A stretch of 40,340 bases of DNA from a virus, in the IMG/VR virus record IMGVR_UViG_3300050821_002839, positions 1 through 40,340 of that record. One strand, written 5' to 3'. The notes below the pieces were generated by a model. That model was not told the origin of the DNA, made no database searches, and saw only the letters and a program-made list of their open reading frames with translations. A program made the position numbers and the translations under genes. This document shows, in pieces, positions 31,087 through 39,467 of the stretch; within the stretch, counting starts at the first letter, position 1; each line of letters opens with the position of its first letter.

Positions 31087-31280
31087 TGGGCGCCGTGTTC
31101 CCTACCCCGACGCCGAGCTCACCCCTCCGCGTGGTCGTGAGTCGCGTTGCCGAACCCACGTGCACGATCGACACCCTCGAATGTGGGCACCGAGTGTACG
31201 ACCACGACAATCGCCCCGTGACCCGCCGACGGTGTGCGGCGTGCGGCAAGACGGCAACGGCAAAGGCGGTGCGCGTATGA
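31086..31280 (+). CDS. Small Zn-ribbon protein
   Basis: A 64-residue protein with CTIDTLECGHRVYDHDNRPV and RRRCAACGKTATAKAV: a C-x-H plus C-x2-C layout typical of a short treble-clef or Zn ribbon. It is coupled by overlaps to both the RHH-like gene before it and the serine recombinase gene after it (ATGA at 31277-31280). Function unknown. Confidence 0.65.
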   Translation: MGAVFPTPTPSSPLRVVVSRVAEPTCTIDTLECGHRVYDHDNRPVTRRRCAACGKTATAKAVRV

Positions 31281-32878
31281 CCGCCCGACGCGCCGCCCTC
31301 TATGCGCGGGTGAGCACCGACGAGCAGGTCGAAAAGTACGGCCTCGACGCGCAAGTGACCGAGCTCCGCGCCCTCGCGACCGCCCGTCAATACGCCGTCG
31401 TCGAGGAATTTGTCGACGAGGGGGTGAGTGGCGCCGTGCTCGACCGCCCCGCGTTGACCCGGTTGCGTGACCTCGTCGCCGCCAAGGGGGTCGACGTGGT
31501 CCTCACCATGGACGCCGACCGCCTCTCGCGCGACTTGGTCAATCACTTGCTCGTGCTCGACGAGCTCACCCGCGCGGGCGTCGGATTGGAGTTTCCGAGT
31601 CACACGGTCGACCCCTCCGCCGAGGGGCAATTTCGCGAACAAGTCCTCGGCGCCGTCGCCCAACTCGAACGCGCCAAGATCCGTAGTCGCACCGCACGCG
31701 GGCGCCGCGAGAAAGCGCGCCGGGGGTTGCATCCGACGGGTAAGGCGCCGTTCGGGTACCGCCGCGACGAGGCGGCGGTCGGTGGCCTCGCCGTCGACCC
31801 CGACGAGGCGAACGTGGTGCGGCGCCTATTCGAGTGGGTCGCCGACGGCGCCGCGATCCGGGCGGTGGCGGCACGCCTCGACGCGCAAGGGGTCACGCCG
31901 CGCGAATCGGCACGGTGGTCGCGGGCGACGGTACGCAAGATGCTATGGTCGGACCTCTACACGGGCACGGGCGTATACAACCGCCTCGACAAGTCGGGCG
32001 CCGCCGCGACGGTGCGCGCCGAGTCAGAGTGGATCCGCTACAAGGTGACGCCGATCGTGTCGGTCGGGCTCGCCGAACGCGCCCGCGCGCAACTCGACCG
32101 CAACAAGCACCTCCTCCGGGGGCGCCCCGCGCGCCGCGTGTTTCTACTCGGTGGCCTGGCGGTGTGCGGCGGGTGCGGGCGGCGCATGCACGGCGACACC
32201 CGACGGGCACGCACCACGTACCGGTGCGAGGGGCGGATCCTCCCCAAGCCGGACCGGTGCAACTTCCGGGCGTTCGCCGACGACCTCGAACCCCGCGTGT
32301 GGGATGCCTTAGTCGGCGTGATTCAGGATCCCGACATCCTCGCCCCGACGGCACGGGCGTCACGCCTCGGGATCGACGCCCGCCGGGTCGACGCCGCCAC
32401 CGAGGTCGCCGAGCTCACCCGCGCCCTCGACAAGGTCACCACGAACCGCAACCGCCTCGTCGACCTCTACGTCGACGGGCGCCTCGACCGCGCCGACTTG
32501 GACGCCAGGGAACCCAAGTTGAAAGCCGAGCTCGACCGCCTCACCCGCGCGGTCGCCGAGGCACAGGCACGCGTCGCCGTCGGGCACGCCGACGCCGACC
32601 GGCACGCCGCCGTCGTCGCATACTGCAAACTCGTCGCGCGGGGGATCGCCCGCCTCGACCCGGCGCAACGCCAAGCGTTCGCCCGCAAGGTGCTCACCCG
32701 CGTGGTCGTGCACGAGGGGCGGGTCGAGGTCGAGGGCGTGTTCAACCTCGCCCTCGGCACCGACGGCGAGAAACCCCAACAACCACAAGGGGGGGTAATG
32801 GTTACTCCCTCTCCCCGGAGTAATCATTACTCACTCCGCCTCACCGTAGACCTTGGGGAACCGGCATGCCAGGGGTGA
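31277..32878 (+). CDS. Large serine recombinase (integrase)
   Basis: The 533-residue product has the full layout of large serine integrases: a resolvase catalytic domain (1-140) with nucleophile Ser13 in ALYARVSTDEQ and MDADRLSRD (R82/R85), a recombinase domain (GKAPFGYRRDEAAVGG, 155-255), a Zn ribbon (C297, C300, C317, C328), and a coiled coil (about 375-430). It would integrate and excise the phage between attP and attB. It lies inside the early operon. The 3' end (32796-32829) carries an inverted repeat. The ATG overlaps the upstream stop. Confidence 0.93.
   Translation: MTARRAALYARVSTDEQVEKYGLDAQVTELRALATARQYAVVEEFVDEGVSGAVLDRPALTRLRDLVAAKGVDVVLTMDADRLSRDLVNHLLVLDELTRAGVGLEFPSHTVDPSAEGQFREQVLGAVAQLERAKIRSRTARGRREKARRGLHPTGKAPFGYRRDEAAVGGLAVDPDEANVVRRLFEWVADGAAIRAVAARLDAQGVTPRESARWSRATVRKMLWSDLYTGTGVYNRLDKSGAAATVRAESEWIRYKVTPIVSVGLAERARAQLDRNKHLLRGRPARRVFLLGGLAVCGGCGRRMHGDTRRARTTYRCEGRILPKPDRCNFRAFADDLEPRVWDALVGVIQDPDILAPTARASRLGIDARRVDAATEVAELTRALDKVTTNRNRLVDLYVDGRLDRADLDAREPKLKAELDRLTRAVAEAQARVAVGHADADRHAAVVAYCKLVARGIARLDPAQRQAFARKVLTRVVVHEGRVEVEGVFNLALGTDGEKPQQPQGGVMVTPSPRSNHYSLRLTVDLGEPACQG
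32796..32829. repeat. Inverted repeat within recombinase 3' end (attP candidate)
   Basis: Arms TAATGGTTACTCC (32796-32808) and GGAGTAATCATTA (32817-32829) pair at 12 of 13 positions around an 8-nt centre; another ATTACTC follows at 32826. It is far less GC-rich than surrounding DNA and is located at the end of the recombinase gene, where serine integrase attP sites commonly lie. It could instead be a transcription or RNA-processing hairpin. Confidence 0.4.
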
Positions 32879-33717
32879 CACCCGCGACCCGTCGCTTGCG
32901 CCTCCTATCGCTCGGGGCGGGCGTGCAATCGTCGACGCTGCTCCTGCTCTCAATACGCGGCGAGTTGCCACCCCTCGACGCCGCGATTTTCGCCGATACC
33001 AAGTACGAACCGGAAGCGGTGTATGCCCACCTCGCGTGGCTTGAGGAACTCGCCCGCGTGGCGGGCGTGCCCATCTATCGCGTGTCGGGCGGCAACTTGC
33101 GTCGTGACACGCTCGAAAATCAGGTGCCAGGCGTGGTCGGCAAAGATCGTCGGTGGGCATCCATGCCGTTTTTCCTCGACGGGGGTGCCGGCGACGACCC
33201 CGGCATGGTGCGCCGCCAATGCACCGACGAGTACAAGTTGCGCCCGATCCGCAAGCAGGTGCGGGCGCTCGCCGGCCTCGCCCCCGGCGAACGGGCGGGC
33301 GACCGCGTGCACGTCGAACAATGGGTCGGCATGTCTGCCGACGAGCTCTCGCGGGTGCGTGTCAGTCCCGACTATTGGATCGACCTCCGCTATCCGTTGA
33401 TTTTCGACCTCCGCCCCGCGTGGACGCGCGCCGACTGCCACGCGTGGTTGCAGCGCGAGTACCCAACGCACCCGGTGCCGCGTTCGGCGTGTATCTCGTG
33501 CCCGTTCCATAGTAACGCCGAGTGGCGACGCATGCGCGACTGTGACCCGGTGTCGTGGCGTGAGGCGGTCGCGTTTGACCGCGCCATTCGCAAACTCGGG
33601 GGCATGCGCGCCGACGCGTATTTACACCCGTCGTTGCGCCCCCTCGACGAGGCGCCAATCGACGACGTCGATCCGAGACAAGGCACGCTCTTTTCGTGCG
33701 GCGTGTGTGGGACGTGA
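32866..33717 (+). CDS. PAPS reductase-like N-type ATP-PPase
   Basis: The 283-residue product has the PP-loop LLSLGAGVQSSTLLLLS (about 13-29), followed by DAAIFADTKYEPEAVYAHLA and RQCTDEYKLRPIRKQ, as in the PAPS reductase/adenine nucleotide alpha-hydrolase superfamily. A Cys pair in SACISCPFHSN and a terminal CGVCG could hold a metal or cluster. Members activate substrates by adenylation; roles range from sulfate reduction to tRNA and DNA thiolation. The phage role is unknown. It overlaps the recombinase gene by 13 bp. Confidence 0.8.
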   Translation: MPGVTPATRRLRLLSLGAGVQSSTLLLLSIRGELPPLDAAIFADTKYEPEAVYAHLAWLEELARVAGVPIYRVSGGNLRRDTLENQVPGVVGKDRRWASMPFFLDGGAGDDPGMVRRQCTDEYKLRPIRKQVRALAGLAPGERAGDRVHVEQWVGMSADELSRVRVSPDYWIDLRYPLIFDLRPAWTRADCHAWLQREYPTHPVPRSACISCPFHSNAEWRRMRDCDPVSWREAVAFDRAIRKLGGMRADAYLHPSLRPLDEAPIDDVDPRQGTLFSCGVCGT

Positions 33718-35762: not shown

Positions 35763-36535
35763 GTCGGCGGCGTGACGTTCTATGCGCACGGTGCAGGTTC
35801 CCCGCGCAAGCGGACTCACCGGAGTGCGGTGACCATCCGTGGATTCAGGAGGAGCTGTGGCTACCATTCGCCCGTGTCAATGGTGCGGCGCCGTCGGGCA
35901 GTGTTATCGTGGGTGCCGTTGCGCCGCCTGCCGTGATCCCATCCGGTGGGAACGGCACCGCACCGGGCGCCCCCGCGCCTATCGTGCATGGTGGATTCGG
36001 CAAGTTGACGGGCGTCGCACCGGAAATCGTTGACCGGTTCATTGAACGGCACCGCGTGGAGTTAGTGCGGGCGCGGGAACTGCAAGATTCGATCGCGCAT
36101 CTAATCGCCGCCTGCAAGTACGGCGAACACGCGGCGCGCACGGTATCGGTGTTGGCGGCGGAGCATTCTGCCGTCGTCACCCACGAAATGGGTCTAAAGC
36201 CGCTCTATACAATCGACTTAGCTCTTGCCGTAAAGGACGGGCTCCTAGCACCGGCTATGATGGCGGTGCAGTTTCTTGTGAGTGGCGAATCGGCTACGGC
36301 ACTCGCCAGATCGTTTTCGGGCATCCGGGGTCGACGAAACTTGCGGGTTGTCGTCGGACCTTATGAGTTACAGCGGTGCGAGGGGGCGGGCGTGCTGGTG
36401 CTCGACGACGAACCGGTCGACCTTGGTTTGCCGTCGGTTGTGCCGGTGCTACGCCTCGCGGAGTTAGCCGGTGGACGCGCGCTCCGCGACGCAATCGGTG
36501 CGCAGGTGATCGGTCCCCATCCGGTATGGCGGTGA
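35759..36535 (+). CDS. Zn-ribbon N-terminus joined to an unrecognised domain
   Basis: A 258-codon frame. Residues 1-35 form a short Zn-ribbon (VLCARCRFPAQADSPECGDH followed by PWIQEELW), which fits the operon's style. From about residue 80 the product (VAPEIVDRFIERHRVELVRA, HAARTVSVLAAEHSAVVTHE, VVVGPYELQRCEGAGVLVLD) looks folded but uses AT-richer codons (TTA, CTA, GTA, AAG), unlike neighbours. The linker overlaps a second gene in another frame. It may be two genes, the second starting at a GTG near 35986, and the second part looks acquired. No function can be assigned. Confidence 0.5.
   Translation: MSRRRDVLCARCRFPAQADSPECGDHPWIQEELWLPFARVNGAAPSGSVIVGAVAPPAVIPSGGNGTAPGAPAPIVHGGFGKLTGVAPEIVDRFIERHRVELVRARELQDSIAHLIAACKYGEHAARTVSVLAAEHSAVVTHEMGLKPLYTIDLALAVKDGLLAPAMMAVQFLVSGESATALARSFSGIRGRRNLRVVVGPYELQRCEGAGVLVLDDEPVDLGLPSVVPVLRLAELAGGRALRDAIGAQVIGPHPVWR
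35857..36033 (+). CDS. Small Cys-rich protein in an overlapping frame
   Basis: A 58-residue product (ATIRPCQWCGAVGQCYRGCR, CAACRDPIRWERHRTGRPRA) with five Cys in Zn-finger spacing and a basic, Trp-containing tail. It has one of the best ribosome binding sites in the window (AGGAGGAG, 35847-35854) just before GTG 35857. It is read in a different frame from the 35759 gene, so one of the two must be reduced or they truly overlap. Confidence 0.5.
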   Translation: MATIRPCQWCGAVGQCYRGCRCAACRDPIRWERHRTGRPRAYRAWWIRQVDGRRTGNR

Positions 36536-37986
36536 CCCCTGCCGCGCCGCCGTCCCTCGTTGACGCCCGCGCCGAACGGGCGTTGCTGGGCGTGCTCATG
36601 CGCGAACCGCGCCGATTCGCCGACGCGCGGATCCGCCGCGCCCTCTTTGCGATGCCGCCGCACGTCAAGGTGTTCGACGCCTTGCGCGCCGCGCACGAAC
36701 GCGGCGAGCTCGGGGGCGACGTGTCGACCGCGTCGGCAGTCGTCGAGGCGGTGCCGTTCCTCGACGCGCCCCGGTTGTTCGTGGTCGAGGCGTGGGAAGA
36801 TGCCGACGACGTGATCGCCGAGGCGGTGATCGGGCACCTCGTGCGCCTCGGCAAGCGGCGGGTGACCAAGCAACTCGCCCTCGGACTCGCCGCCGTCGCC
36901 GACACGCCGTCACCGGGCGAGGACCGCGAAACCCTGGCGACGATCGGCGCACGGGTGTCGGCGCTCGCCGACCCGCCCGCCGAGGATTCCCCGTTCGCCG
37001 TCGCCGATACGATCCTGCCGCGCCGAGTCGCGTGGTTGTGGGATCGGCGGATTCCGTTCGGCAAAGTCACCCTCGTCGAGGGCGATCCCGGCCTCGGCAA
37101 GTCGACGTTGACCCTCGACGTCGCGGCGCGGGTCACGCGGGGCGCGCCACAAGAGGGCGACACGACGGCATGGGATCCCGGCGGCGTCGTCCTCGTCGGC
37201 GCCGAGGACGGGTTAGACGACACGTTGCGCCCGCGCCTCGAAGCGGCGGGCGCCGACTTGCACCGCGTCGCCGCCTTCAAACTCGACCGCCTGCCGATCC
37301 TGCCGACCGAGCTCGGGACGGTGCGCGCCGCGATGCGCGCGGTCGACGCCGTGCTTGTGATTCTCGACCCCCTCGCGGCGCTCCTCGCGTCCTCGGTCGA
37401 TTCCTACCGCGATCAAGACGTGCGCCGCGTCCTCGCCGCCCTCGCCGGCCTCGCCGACGACACGGGCGCCGCCGTCGTGATCGTGCGCCACCTCACCAAG
37501 CAAGCCGGTCCCAAGGCGCTCTATCGCGGCGGCGGGTCGATCGGGATTGCAGGCGCCGCCCGCTCGGTGCTACTCGTCGCCGCCGATCCCGATGAGAACA
37601 CCGAGCAACGCGTGCTCGCCCCCGTCAAGTCGAACCTGTGCGCACCCGCCGCCCCCTTACGATTCTCGCTCGAACCACTCGGCGACGCGGTGCGAGTGAC
37701 GTGGCACGGCGAATCGACCCGGACCGCCGACGACCTCGTGAAGGCACCCGGTGCCGACGAGGATGATCGCTCCGCGTCGATTGGTGAAGCGGTCGCGGTT
37801 TTGCAAACGTTACTCGGGGTACACGGCGCCGTCGCCGCCGATACCGCCGAACGGGAGCGCCGTCGCCTCGGTATCTCGGAATATGCTTGGCGGCGCGCAC
37901 GGCACCGGTTGCTCCTCGAAACATCGAAGGAAGGATTTTCCGGCGGGTGGGTGTTACGCTCGCCGTTGAACGGGAGAGGGCAGTAA
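36526..37986 (+). CDS. RepA-like replicative helicase / AAA ATPase with DnaB-N-like domain
   Basis: The 486-residue product combines an N-terminal DnaB-N-like helical domain (about 10-110; VDARAERALLGVLMREPRRF, FDALRAAHERGELGGDVSTA) with a RecA-type core: Walker A GDPGLGKST (186-194), Walker B VLVILDPL (276-283), RHLTK (321-325) and the RGGGSIGIAGAARS motif typical of RepA-like hexameric helicases. A C-terminal winged-helix-like region follows. It probably unwinds DNA at the iteron origin immediately downstream. ATG 36526 or GTG 36532 (which overlaps the upstream stop) may be the start. Confidence 0.87.
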   Translation: MAVTPAAPPSLVDARAERALLGVLMREPRRFADARIRRALFAMPPHVKVFDALRAAHERGELGGDVSTASAVVEAVPFLDAPRLFVVEAWEDADDVIAEAVIGHLVRLGKRRVTKQLALGLAAVADTPSPGEDRETLATIGARVSALADPPAEDSPFAVADTILPRRVAWLWDRRIPFGKVTLVEGDPGLGKSTLTLDVAARVTRGAPQEGDTTAWDPGGVVLVGAEDGLDDTLRPRLEAAGADLHRVAAFKLDRLPILPTELGTVRAAMRAVDAVLVILDPLAALLASSVDSYRDQDVRRVLAALAGLADDTGAAVVIVRHLTKQAGPKALYRGGGSIGIAGAARSVLLVAADPDENTEQRVLAPVKSNLCAPAAPLRFSLEPLGDAVRVTWHGESTRTADDLVKAPGADEDDRSASIGEAVAVLQTLLGVHGAVAADTAERERRRLGISEYAWRRARHRLLLETSKEGFSGGWVLRSPLNGRGQ

Positions 37987-38035
37987 AGCAGCGACACCCG
38001 CGAACGCATGTTTTTTCGCCCACCGTTCTCGGTGA

Positions 38036-38249
38036 TCGTCGCCTTCGCCGAGATCGCCGCCTTGGGCGAAAATCAACTACTTACGACGCTCCCCATTTGG
38101 GGGGGGTGGTAAGGGGGGGGTGGTATGTGCGTTGCACGGCACGAAGGCGACGACGTCGACCACGAAGGCGACGAATGTCGGTGTCGAAGGCGACGACGCA
38201 TAGACCTTTGAATTATGGCGAAGGCGTCGACAAATGCCGAAGGCGTCGA
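38036..38249. repeat. Iteron array: six copies of CGAAGGCG(A/T)CGA
   Basis: Reverse-strand copy at 38036-38047; direct copies at 38142-38153, 38163-38174, 38185-38196 (all with A) and 38219-38230, 38238-38249 (with T). Start-to-start distances of direct copies are 21, 22, 34 and 19 bp, near two or three helical turns, so the bound proteins would lie on similar faces of the helix. The first three and last two form two sub-types. Confidence 0.88.
38099..38125 (+). repeat. Direct repeat of G8-TGGTA
   Basis: GGGGGGGGTGGTA occurs at 38099-38111 and 38113-38125, between the inverted and direct iterons. Two eight-G runs plus GG pairs could support G-quadruplex formation on the plus strand, or the runs may be an assembly-sensitive stretch. 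Confidence 0.6.
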
Positions 38250-38343
38250 AATGTCCCCAACTATGTGCGAGGTCGAAAAAATCCGCGTTTCGGGTGTGGC
38301 TGATTGTTGGCACCGCCGACGGTGCCAGGATAGGGGGTGCGCA

Positions 38344-38628
38344 ATGTCGACCTTGTGGGCAGGTTCGTTGTTCGGCGCGAAAACGGGCAAGGGGTTGGTC
38401 GAGCTCTCCGAGGTCGACGAGGCGGGCGCCGTCGTGTGGCGCCGGCAATGCACCCCCGACGAGGCACGCGATCACGCCTTGCGGATCCTAGAGGCGGCGA
38501 GCGCCGCCGAGCTCGACGCCCTCATCGTGCGGTGGTTGACGGCGCCGCCGTTCAGTCTCGACGTCGAGGGCGCGGCACACGTGCTCGTCGAGTTTCGCCG
38601 CCTGCGCGACGCCGAACGCGCCGGGTAG
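38344..38628 (+). CDS. Hypothetical protein
   Basis: A 94-residue protein: STLWAGSLFGAKTGKGLVEL and VVWRRQCTPDEARDHALRIL, then a helix-rich C-terminus (AAHVLVEFRRLRDAERAG). The ATG follows ATAGGGGG, a good ribosome binding site. First gene after the putative origin. Not recognised. Confidence 0.65.
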   Translation: MSTLWAGSLFGAKTGKGLVELSEVDEAGAVVWRRQCTPDEARDHALRILEAASAAELDALIVRWLTAPPFSLDVEGAAHVLVEFRRLRDAERAG

Positions 38629-38815: not shown

Positions 38816-39385
38816 ATGGGCGTCGAGGTGCGCGTCGAAATGCAGACCGACATTTTGCGCGCGATCGCGGACTCGGTGTCCGATCCGGGGTTTCGCGACC
38901 TCGCCGCCCGCGCCTTGAACGACACCGTTGCCGACGCCGAACGCCAAACCGCCACGTTGCTCGGACCGTTCATGCCGGGGTTGCGCCCGAGCGACATCAC
39001 CGCCGCCCTCTCGACCACCCCCGCGCGCCCCGAACACCTCTCGGCGTCGCTCGTCGGCGGCGGCAAGGCGTTGCCCATGATCCGGTTTCAACCCCGTGCC
39101 AGTCGCGCCGAGGGCGTCACGATCACGATTGCCGGCAAAACCGAACGCTACCGGCACGCGTTCCTCGCGACCGTCAAACACGGGCACGAGGGCGTGTTTG
39201 AGCGCAAAGGACGCGAGCGGTTGCCCATTCGCGAGCTCTACGGCCCGTCGGTGCACGGCATGATGGCACGCACCGACGTGTTGCCCCGGATCACCGCCGA
39301 ATTGGAAAGCGACTTGCTCGCGAACCTCGCCCGCCAACTCGACCGCGCCGTGCGCCGTGCCGGCGGGCATCCGGCGGGCGCCTAG
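38816..39385 (+). CDS. Minor tail protein Z-like (GpZ)
   Basis: The 189-residue product resembles the GpZ/tail-completion family: RALNDTVADAERQTATLLGP, SASLVGGGKALPMIRFQPRA, VTITIAGKTERYRHAFLATV, KHGHEGVFERKG, and the closing RLPIRELYGPSVHGM, a strong family signature. GpZ acts in tail completion. It is displaced here, about 12 kb from the last rightward tail-region gene on the linear map but only about 12 kb before the sheath gene if the genome is circular. ATG 38816 follows the previous stop by 4 bp. Confidence 0.65.
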   Translation: MGVEVRVEMQTDILRAIADSVSDPGFRDLAARALNDTVADAERQTATLLGPFMPGLRPSDITAALSTTPARPEHLSASLVGGGKALPMIRFQPRASRAEGVTITIAGKTERYRHAFLATVKHGHEGVFERKGRERLPIRELYGPSVHGMMARTDVLPRITAELESDLLANLARQLDRAVRRAGGHPAGA

Positions 39386-39438
39386 CGTCGCGCCGTCGGC
39401 GTCGCTATACGCGACGGTGCCTCACCACCCCACCACCC

Positions 39439-39467
39439 GGCACGTGCTCGCCCTCGGGGCACGTGCC
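39439..39467. terminator. Hairpin between convergent genes (bidirectional terminator candidate)
   Basis: GGCACGTGC (39439-39447) and GCACGTGCC (39459-39467) form a 9-bp stem with an 11-nt loop in the 115-bp gap between the rightward GpZ-like gene (ends 39385) and the leftward gene (ends 39501). No T-tract on either side. Each arm contains the palindrome GCACGTGC, so it could also bind a protein. Confidence 0.5.

Follow-up and report, generated by a model that had tools for sequence, protein, structure and literature searches.

Near one end of a 40,340-nt phage sequence (the whole stretch analysed here, referred to as the window), a helicase gene is followed by a short stretch carrying several copies of one 12-bp word, raising the question of whether replication of the phage starts there and, if so, which protein reads the repeats. 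On comparative sequence evidence, the phage very probably begins its replication in this repeat stretch. The preferred reading of the locus, with a probability of about 0.7, is that positions 37987–38343 constitute the origin, and that the helicase encoded upstream is the partner that would bind the iterons via its C-terminal winged helix, open the DNA, and load itself.

The candidate origin (37987–38343; 357 nt) spans from the helicase stop codon to a small gene starting at 38344—a start backed by a full-length homologue, 78% identical, in the relative L034—and the array therefore lies in non-coding DNA, as the initial annotation had stated. Its A+T content is 40%, compared with 31% in the window. 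A pattern search of the window located six exact copies of CGAAGGCGWCGA at 38036–38249, four of them reading CGAAGGCGACGA and two CGAAGGCGTCGA: one inverted copy (i1, CGAAGGCGACGA, 38036–38047, minus strand) and five direct copies on the plus strand, namely d1, d2, and d3 (CGAAGGCGACGA; 38142–38153, 38163–38174, and 38185–38196) and d4 and d5 (CGAAGGCGTCGA; 38219–38230 and 38238–38249). The earlier count of six perfect 12-bp copies, one inverted and five direct, is thus borne out by exact matches, and the word is unique to the array, with no further exact copy outside 38036–38249 in the 40,340-nt IMG/VR record and no exact match to the reversed control pattern anywhere in that record. A seventh, degenerate copy, which had gone uncounted, is AAGGCGGCGA (38054–38063, minus strand, inverted), with a core, AAGGCGNNGA, as in the iterons of the relative L025. 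Between the inverted and direct iterons lies a pair of G-tracts, GGGGGGGGTGGTAAGGGGGGGGTGGTA (38099–38125, plus strand). The start-to-start distances of the direct copies are 21, 22, 34, and 19, as had been claimed; their description as near-helical holds for 21 and 22, which are near two helical turns, but less so for 34 and 19. The gap between d3 and d4 contains an A+T-rich stretch (38193–38223, plus strand) with 62.5% A+T over 24 nt—a level reached by 0.3% of the 24-mers in the window—and is a candidate unwinding element. An Rfam search gave no match, and GC skew was uninformative for the origin position.

When up to two mismatches were allowed, CGAAGGCGWCGA had 88 matches in the window, where 27 would be expected, an excess explained by the abundance of CGxCG words in the genome; loose matches being so common, only the exact cluster carries much weight. 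In Markov sequences of the helicase region, copies of any one 8-mer per 300 nt did not exceed four, compared with the six observed. The only other local repeats of comparable strength in the window are the coding repeats of a collagen-like tail fibre at 17.4–17.9 kb.

The initiator-helicase candidate itself (36526–37986, plus strand; 486 aa) is made up of a DnaB-like N-terminal domain, a RepA/RadA-type RecA motor of the AAA_25 family, and a C-terminal winged helix, at about residues 14–96, 158–400, and 412–478, respectively. Pfam matched AAA_25 at 1.9e-32 and the DnaB N-domain weakly, with nothing else, and no primase domain was found in the protein. The profile of the helicase family (A4) matches solved structures of the DnaB N-domain, RSF1010 RepA, and RadA. 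RepA (1g8y; E 3e-8) is among the closest solved motors, and the gene ends at 37986, in agreement with the initial annotation, which had placed the array directly 3′ of a RepA-like helicase gene. The AlphaFold2 model of the protein has a mean pLDDT of 75, with low confidence at residues 95–154, and the top Foldseek matches to it were all DnaB, the closest over the length of the model. The C-terminus is predicted to form three helices and a two-strand wing (H-H-H-E-E); Foldseek with this domain in isolation returned many winged-helix regulators, none of them significant.

The arrangement is kept in close relatives. In L025 (TerL 86%, tail protein Z 72%), the end of the helicase gene is followed by an array and then by a conserved block before the next gene, and a similar G-tract pair (GGGGGGGAAGGGGTATAGGGGGGGTGG) lies between two inverted copies of AAGGCGNYGA on one side and four direct ones on the other—that is, position, layout, and repeats are retained with a drifted word, of which there is no further copy elsewhere in the 4.4 kb of L025. 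In L001, with a helicase 60% identical and a similar gene order, the position and the repeat plan are retained, with a different word, CGAAGATGAG, occurring at the same place as inverted copies and then direct ones. A second helicase scan of viral contigs found nothing besides L001.

Relatives lacking the helicase carry other replication modules at this place, and the initiator gene and the repeat array thus appear, as far as gene order and repeats indicate, to form a cassette that is swapped as a unit at a single position of a shared phage backbone. In L030, L031, L033, L034, and L035 (TerL 67–71%), an O-like ORF takes the place of the helicase; Pfam matched neither of the two tested (L031 and L033), and the L031 ORF contains a repeat. 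In L032, the place is taken by a Prim-Pol/VapE helicase, a protein with VapE-like matches, behind which eight copies of AGGTCGTG are arranged in three blocks of alternating orientation (L032:4405–4575), followed by a small membrane-type gene resembling its counterpart in the relatives and then by tail protein Z. The L032 array is a second, independent type of iteron array, occupying the same position in the shared backbone. Five copies of ACGAAGCG amid similar short repeats were also seen in L035 (8980–9071), at a different place, 3′ of tail protein Z; given this position downstream of a tail gene, they were not counted as support for the origin arrangement.

Repeat arrays 3′ of this helicase were also sought beyond the phage relatives. 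Helicase relatives were taken from genome contigs and the phyla of four seeds titled Chloroflexi, Acidobacteria, Actinomycetota, and Phaeobacter, and in each of 79 loci—including the window and L001, the two that prompted the test—a 380-nt segment was tested, so placed that its first 30 nt still covered the end of the winged-helix coding sequence; every other segment of these loci served as a control. Four or more copies of an exact 8-mer occurred in 30 of the 79 3′ segments and in 13 of 1124 other segments (P 1.8e-28), and five or more in 21/79 and 3/1124, respectively. The enrichment persisted (26/71 vs 4/184, P 8e-13) with near-duplicates removed and the ends of other long ORFs of the same loci as controls. 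In 35 of the 79 loci (about 45%), no array was detectable as exact 8-mers, nor was one detectable by this measure in the Streptomyces plasmid L188, the Subdoligranulum plasmid L186, or the mycobacteriophage L187; the iteron array is therefore common in the family, but not universal.

The words vary among loci, examples being ACCGTCAC (nine copies), CTTGAACA (eight), ATCCTTAA (seven), CCGAAGAA (six), and CTTTGGCA (four), and those enriched across phyla can be assembled, as we read the list, into an approximate degenerate core, AAG[AG]TGC[TC]CAA. Downstream of the helicase gene, L125, L129, and L137 have different words in the same mirrored six-copy layout (+,+,−,+,−,−), with nearly the same spacing in all three loci, suggesting that the bound complex has a fixed geometry. 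The arrangement recurs across several bacterial phyla, with a word of its own for each helicase, which points to helicases that each mark and open an origin of their own. In L010, a nine-copy array (2611–2877) sits within a C-terminal extension of the helicase ORF, and the proposed origin would therefore be coding there. The 54-nt repeats of L005, located in a coding extension as well, were set aside as possible tandem coding repeats. The circular 22-kb Streptomyces plasmid NZ_CP058979.1 (L185) encodes an AAA family ATPase of this helicase family and has repeats of TGGTGACG in both orientations (L185:4354–4485) within about 490 nt of non-coding DNA 3′ of the ATPase gene; this plasmid is possibly a natural mini-replicon.

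As to which protein reads the iterons, co-variation was examined by partial Mantel analysis of 32 array-bearing loci. After controlling for motor identity, iteron similarity correlated with winged-helix identity (partial r 0.29, P 6e-4); the converse test, of motor identity controlled for the winged helix, gave no significant correlation (0.06, P 0.23). With one locus kept per >0.6 winged-helix identity, the values were 0.25 (P 0.005) for the winged helix and 0.03 (P 0.38) for the motor; in the smallest set, reduced at >0.5 identity, the winged-helix value was 0.21, with P near the threshold (0.047). This statistical evidence, modest to moderate in strength, points to the fused winged helix as the probable iteron reader. 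The window and L001 iterons have CGAAG in common, which fits a winged-helix reader and is not independent evidence. Searches of the record found no Rep3 initiator (PF01051), with working search controls, and no RepC-like candidate was recognised among the scanned ORFs by a general family search. The initial annotation had named the helicase as a possible recogniser of the repeats, a suggestion strengthened by its C-terminal winged helix and the co-variation of that domain with the repeats. Host DnaA or a small unrecognised protein could also be the reader.

The latter reading, in which the stretch is a true origin but its iterons are bound by some other protein, either host-encoded or a small early protein of the phage, with the helicase merely being loaded, is the less likely one. 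It has a precedent in RSF1010, where a separate protein, RepC, melts the oriV at which RepA is then loaded (PMC8965321), and several small early ORFs of the window have no family match. However, the position of the array tracks the helicase gene across phyla, the iterons co-vary with the helicase's own winged helix, and the early-region proteins common to the window and L001 are limited to the integrase, the RuvC-like protein, the helicase, and part of one small uncharacterised ORF. It is improbable that the array is instead an operator cluster for the genes from 38344 onward or for the early operon. Although operator arrays of similar size occur and the downstream genes run in the same direction, the small downstream gene varies among relatives (its L034 homologue is located elsewhere, and inverted), whereas the array stays with the helicase, and in several phyla bacterial loci with this helicase also carry 3′ arrays.

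A packaging (cos/pac) or partition site is more improbable still. Partition sites are often short repeat arrays, and, should the two ends of the record join, a terminase small subunit gene would follow at a distance of about 2 kb; yet no ParA/ParB was present among the scanned ORFs, L030, L031, and L033–L035 keep TerS/TerL with a changed replication module and without this array, and the bacterial family loci carry the array beside the helicase. Hardly credible, finally, is an origin of the array by chance or by repetition of coding sequence at high GC. The window does contain many loose matches to the word, but the exact copies are confined to the array, the region is non-coding, the layout is kept in L025, and the enrichment is family-wide; the comparative data already contradict this reading.

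The proposal of an initiator-bound iteron origin 3′ of the helicase gene, made in the initial annotation, is thus favoured by the conservation in L025 and L001, the family-wide enrichment, and the co-variation with the winged helix, with binding itself as a predicted step. In the preferred reading, with the helicase as its own origin reader, the C-terminal winged helix would bind the iterons and so position several DnaB-like motors around the A+T-rich gap at 38193–38223, where the DNA would melt. Helicase rings would then load themselves, the need for DnaA and the host helicase loader being reduced or abolished, the DnaB-like N-terminal domain would recruit primase, and replication would probably be of the theta type.

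Several known systems share parts of this plan. In the initiator helicases SaPI Rep and SCC Cch2, the C-terminal domain recognises iterons situated immediately 3′ of the helicase's own gene; self-loading has been proposed, and Cch2 is related to D5 and MCM-like helicases (PMC7581432). As in these systems, the window iterons lie directly 3′ of the helicase gene. A C-terminal winged helix is predicted in the window helicase, co-varies with the iterons, and may read them. Unlike the D5/VapE- or MCM-type motors of these systems, the window motor is a RecA-fold AAA_25 domain combined with a DnaB-like N-domain; a D5/VapE- or MCM-type ATPase is absent from the protein, for which Pfam gave AAA_25 and the DnaB N-domain only and structure matches gave DnaB. 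The motor family being different, the window system is not a member of the SaPI Rep/SCC Cch2 group, although it follows the same logic. The origin of the IncQ plasmid RSF1010 has iterons, and the window motor is, like that of RSF1010, RepA-like with a RecA fold. In RSF1010, however, origin melting is assigned to RepC, separate from RepA (PMC8965321), whereas the predicted iteron reader of the window appears to be fused to the helicase, no RepC-like gene being recognised among the scanned ORFs. The alpha protein of phage P4 resembles the window helicase in combining a helicase and a C-terminal origin-binding domain (predicted in the window) with iterons; alpha is, however, also a primase and belongs to a different helicase family, and no primase domain was found in the window helicase. 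In phage lambda, iterons lie inside the initiator gene O, and O recruits DnaB through P; the window likewise has a probable phage iteron origin at a replication gene, but its candidate initiator is itself DnaB-like and its array lies 3′ of the gene. L027/L031 and L033 appear to use the O-like plan. Rep3-type iteron plasmids (RepE, pi, TrfA) combine short iterons with an A+T-rich stretch, as does the window, but their initiators are not helicases, whereas the proposed partner in the window is one.

A broader proposal, for which the odds are about even, is that AAA_25/winged-helix helicases are widespread, so far unrecognised self-marking initiator-helicases of phages, plasmids, and integrated elements, in which a DnaB-like motor is fused to an origin reader, with cognate iterons 3′ of the gene, and starts replication without DnaA or a loader. 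The literature on AAA_25 proteins and origins, covered incompletely, yielded no report of such an arrangement, and an earlier description is possible. If the proposal is true, iteron and reader diverge jointly, giving element-specific origin recognition, and the union of a DnaB-type motor with an origin reader took place separately from that in the SaPI/SCC and P4 helicases. Loader-free helicase loading would become directly testable, and the origins of uncultured phages and elements could be found from sequence alone; the comparative data already point to candidate origins in dozens of loci at once.

The phage carrying this locus is contractile-tailed, judging from its TerL, portal, protease-capsid, sheath, tube, and baseplate families, and also encodes a RecE-like exonuclease and a RuvC-like resolvase. 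The initial annotation had regarded it as a Mu-like phage replicating by theta mode instead of transposition. This frame is not supported, because a large serine integrase is present (31160–32878, plus strand), making integration site-specific rather than Mu-like, and no Mu-type transposase was found among the window ORFs scanned; a direct search for the Mu transposase (PF02914) was uninformative either way, its controls having given no signal. For a temperate phage, combining site-specific integration with an origin of its own is nothing unusual. ARAGORN predicted a tRNA-Ile (anticodon TAT; 39350–39443, minus strand) where the tail protein Z gene ends, possibly spurious in view of its length of 94 nt and its overlap with the coding region. 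Between the integrase and replication genes, the window also carries an auxiliary metabolic gene, which is phosphoadenosine phosphosulfate reductase-like (32866–33717).
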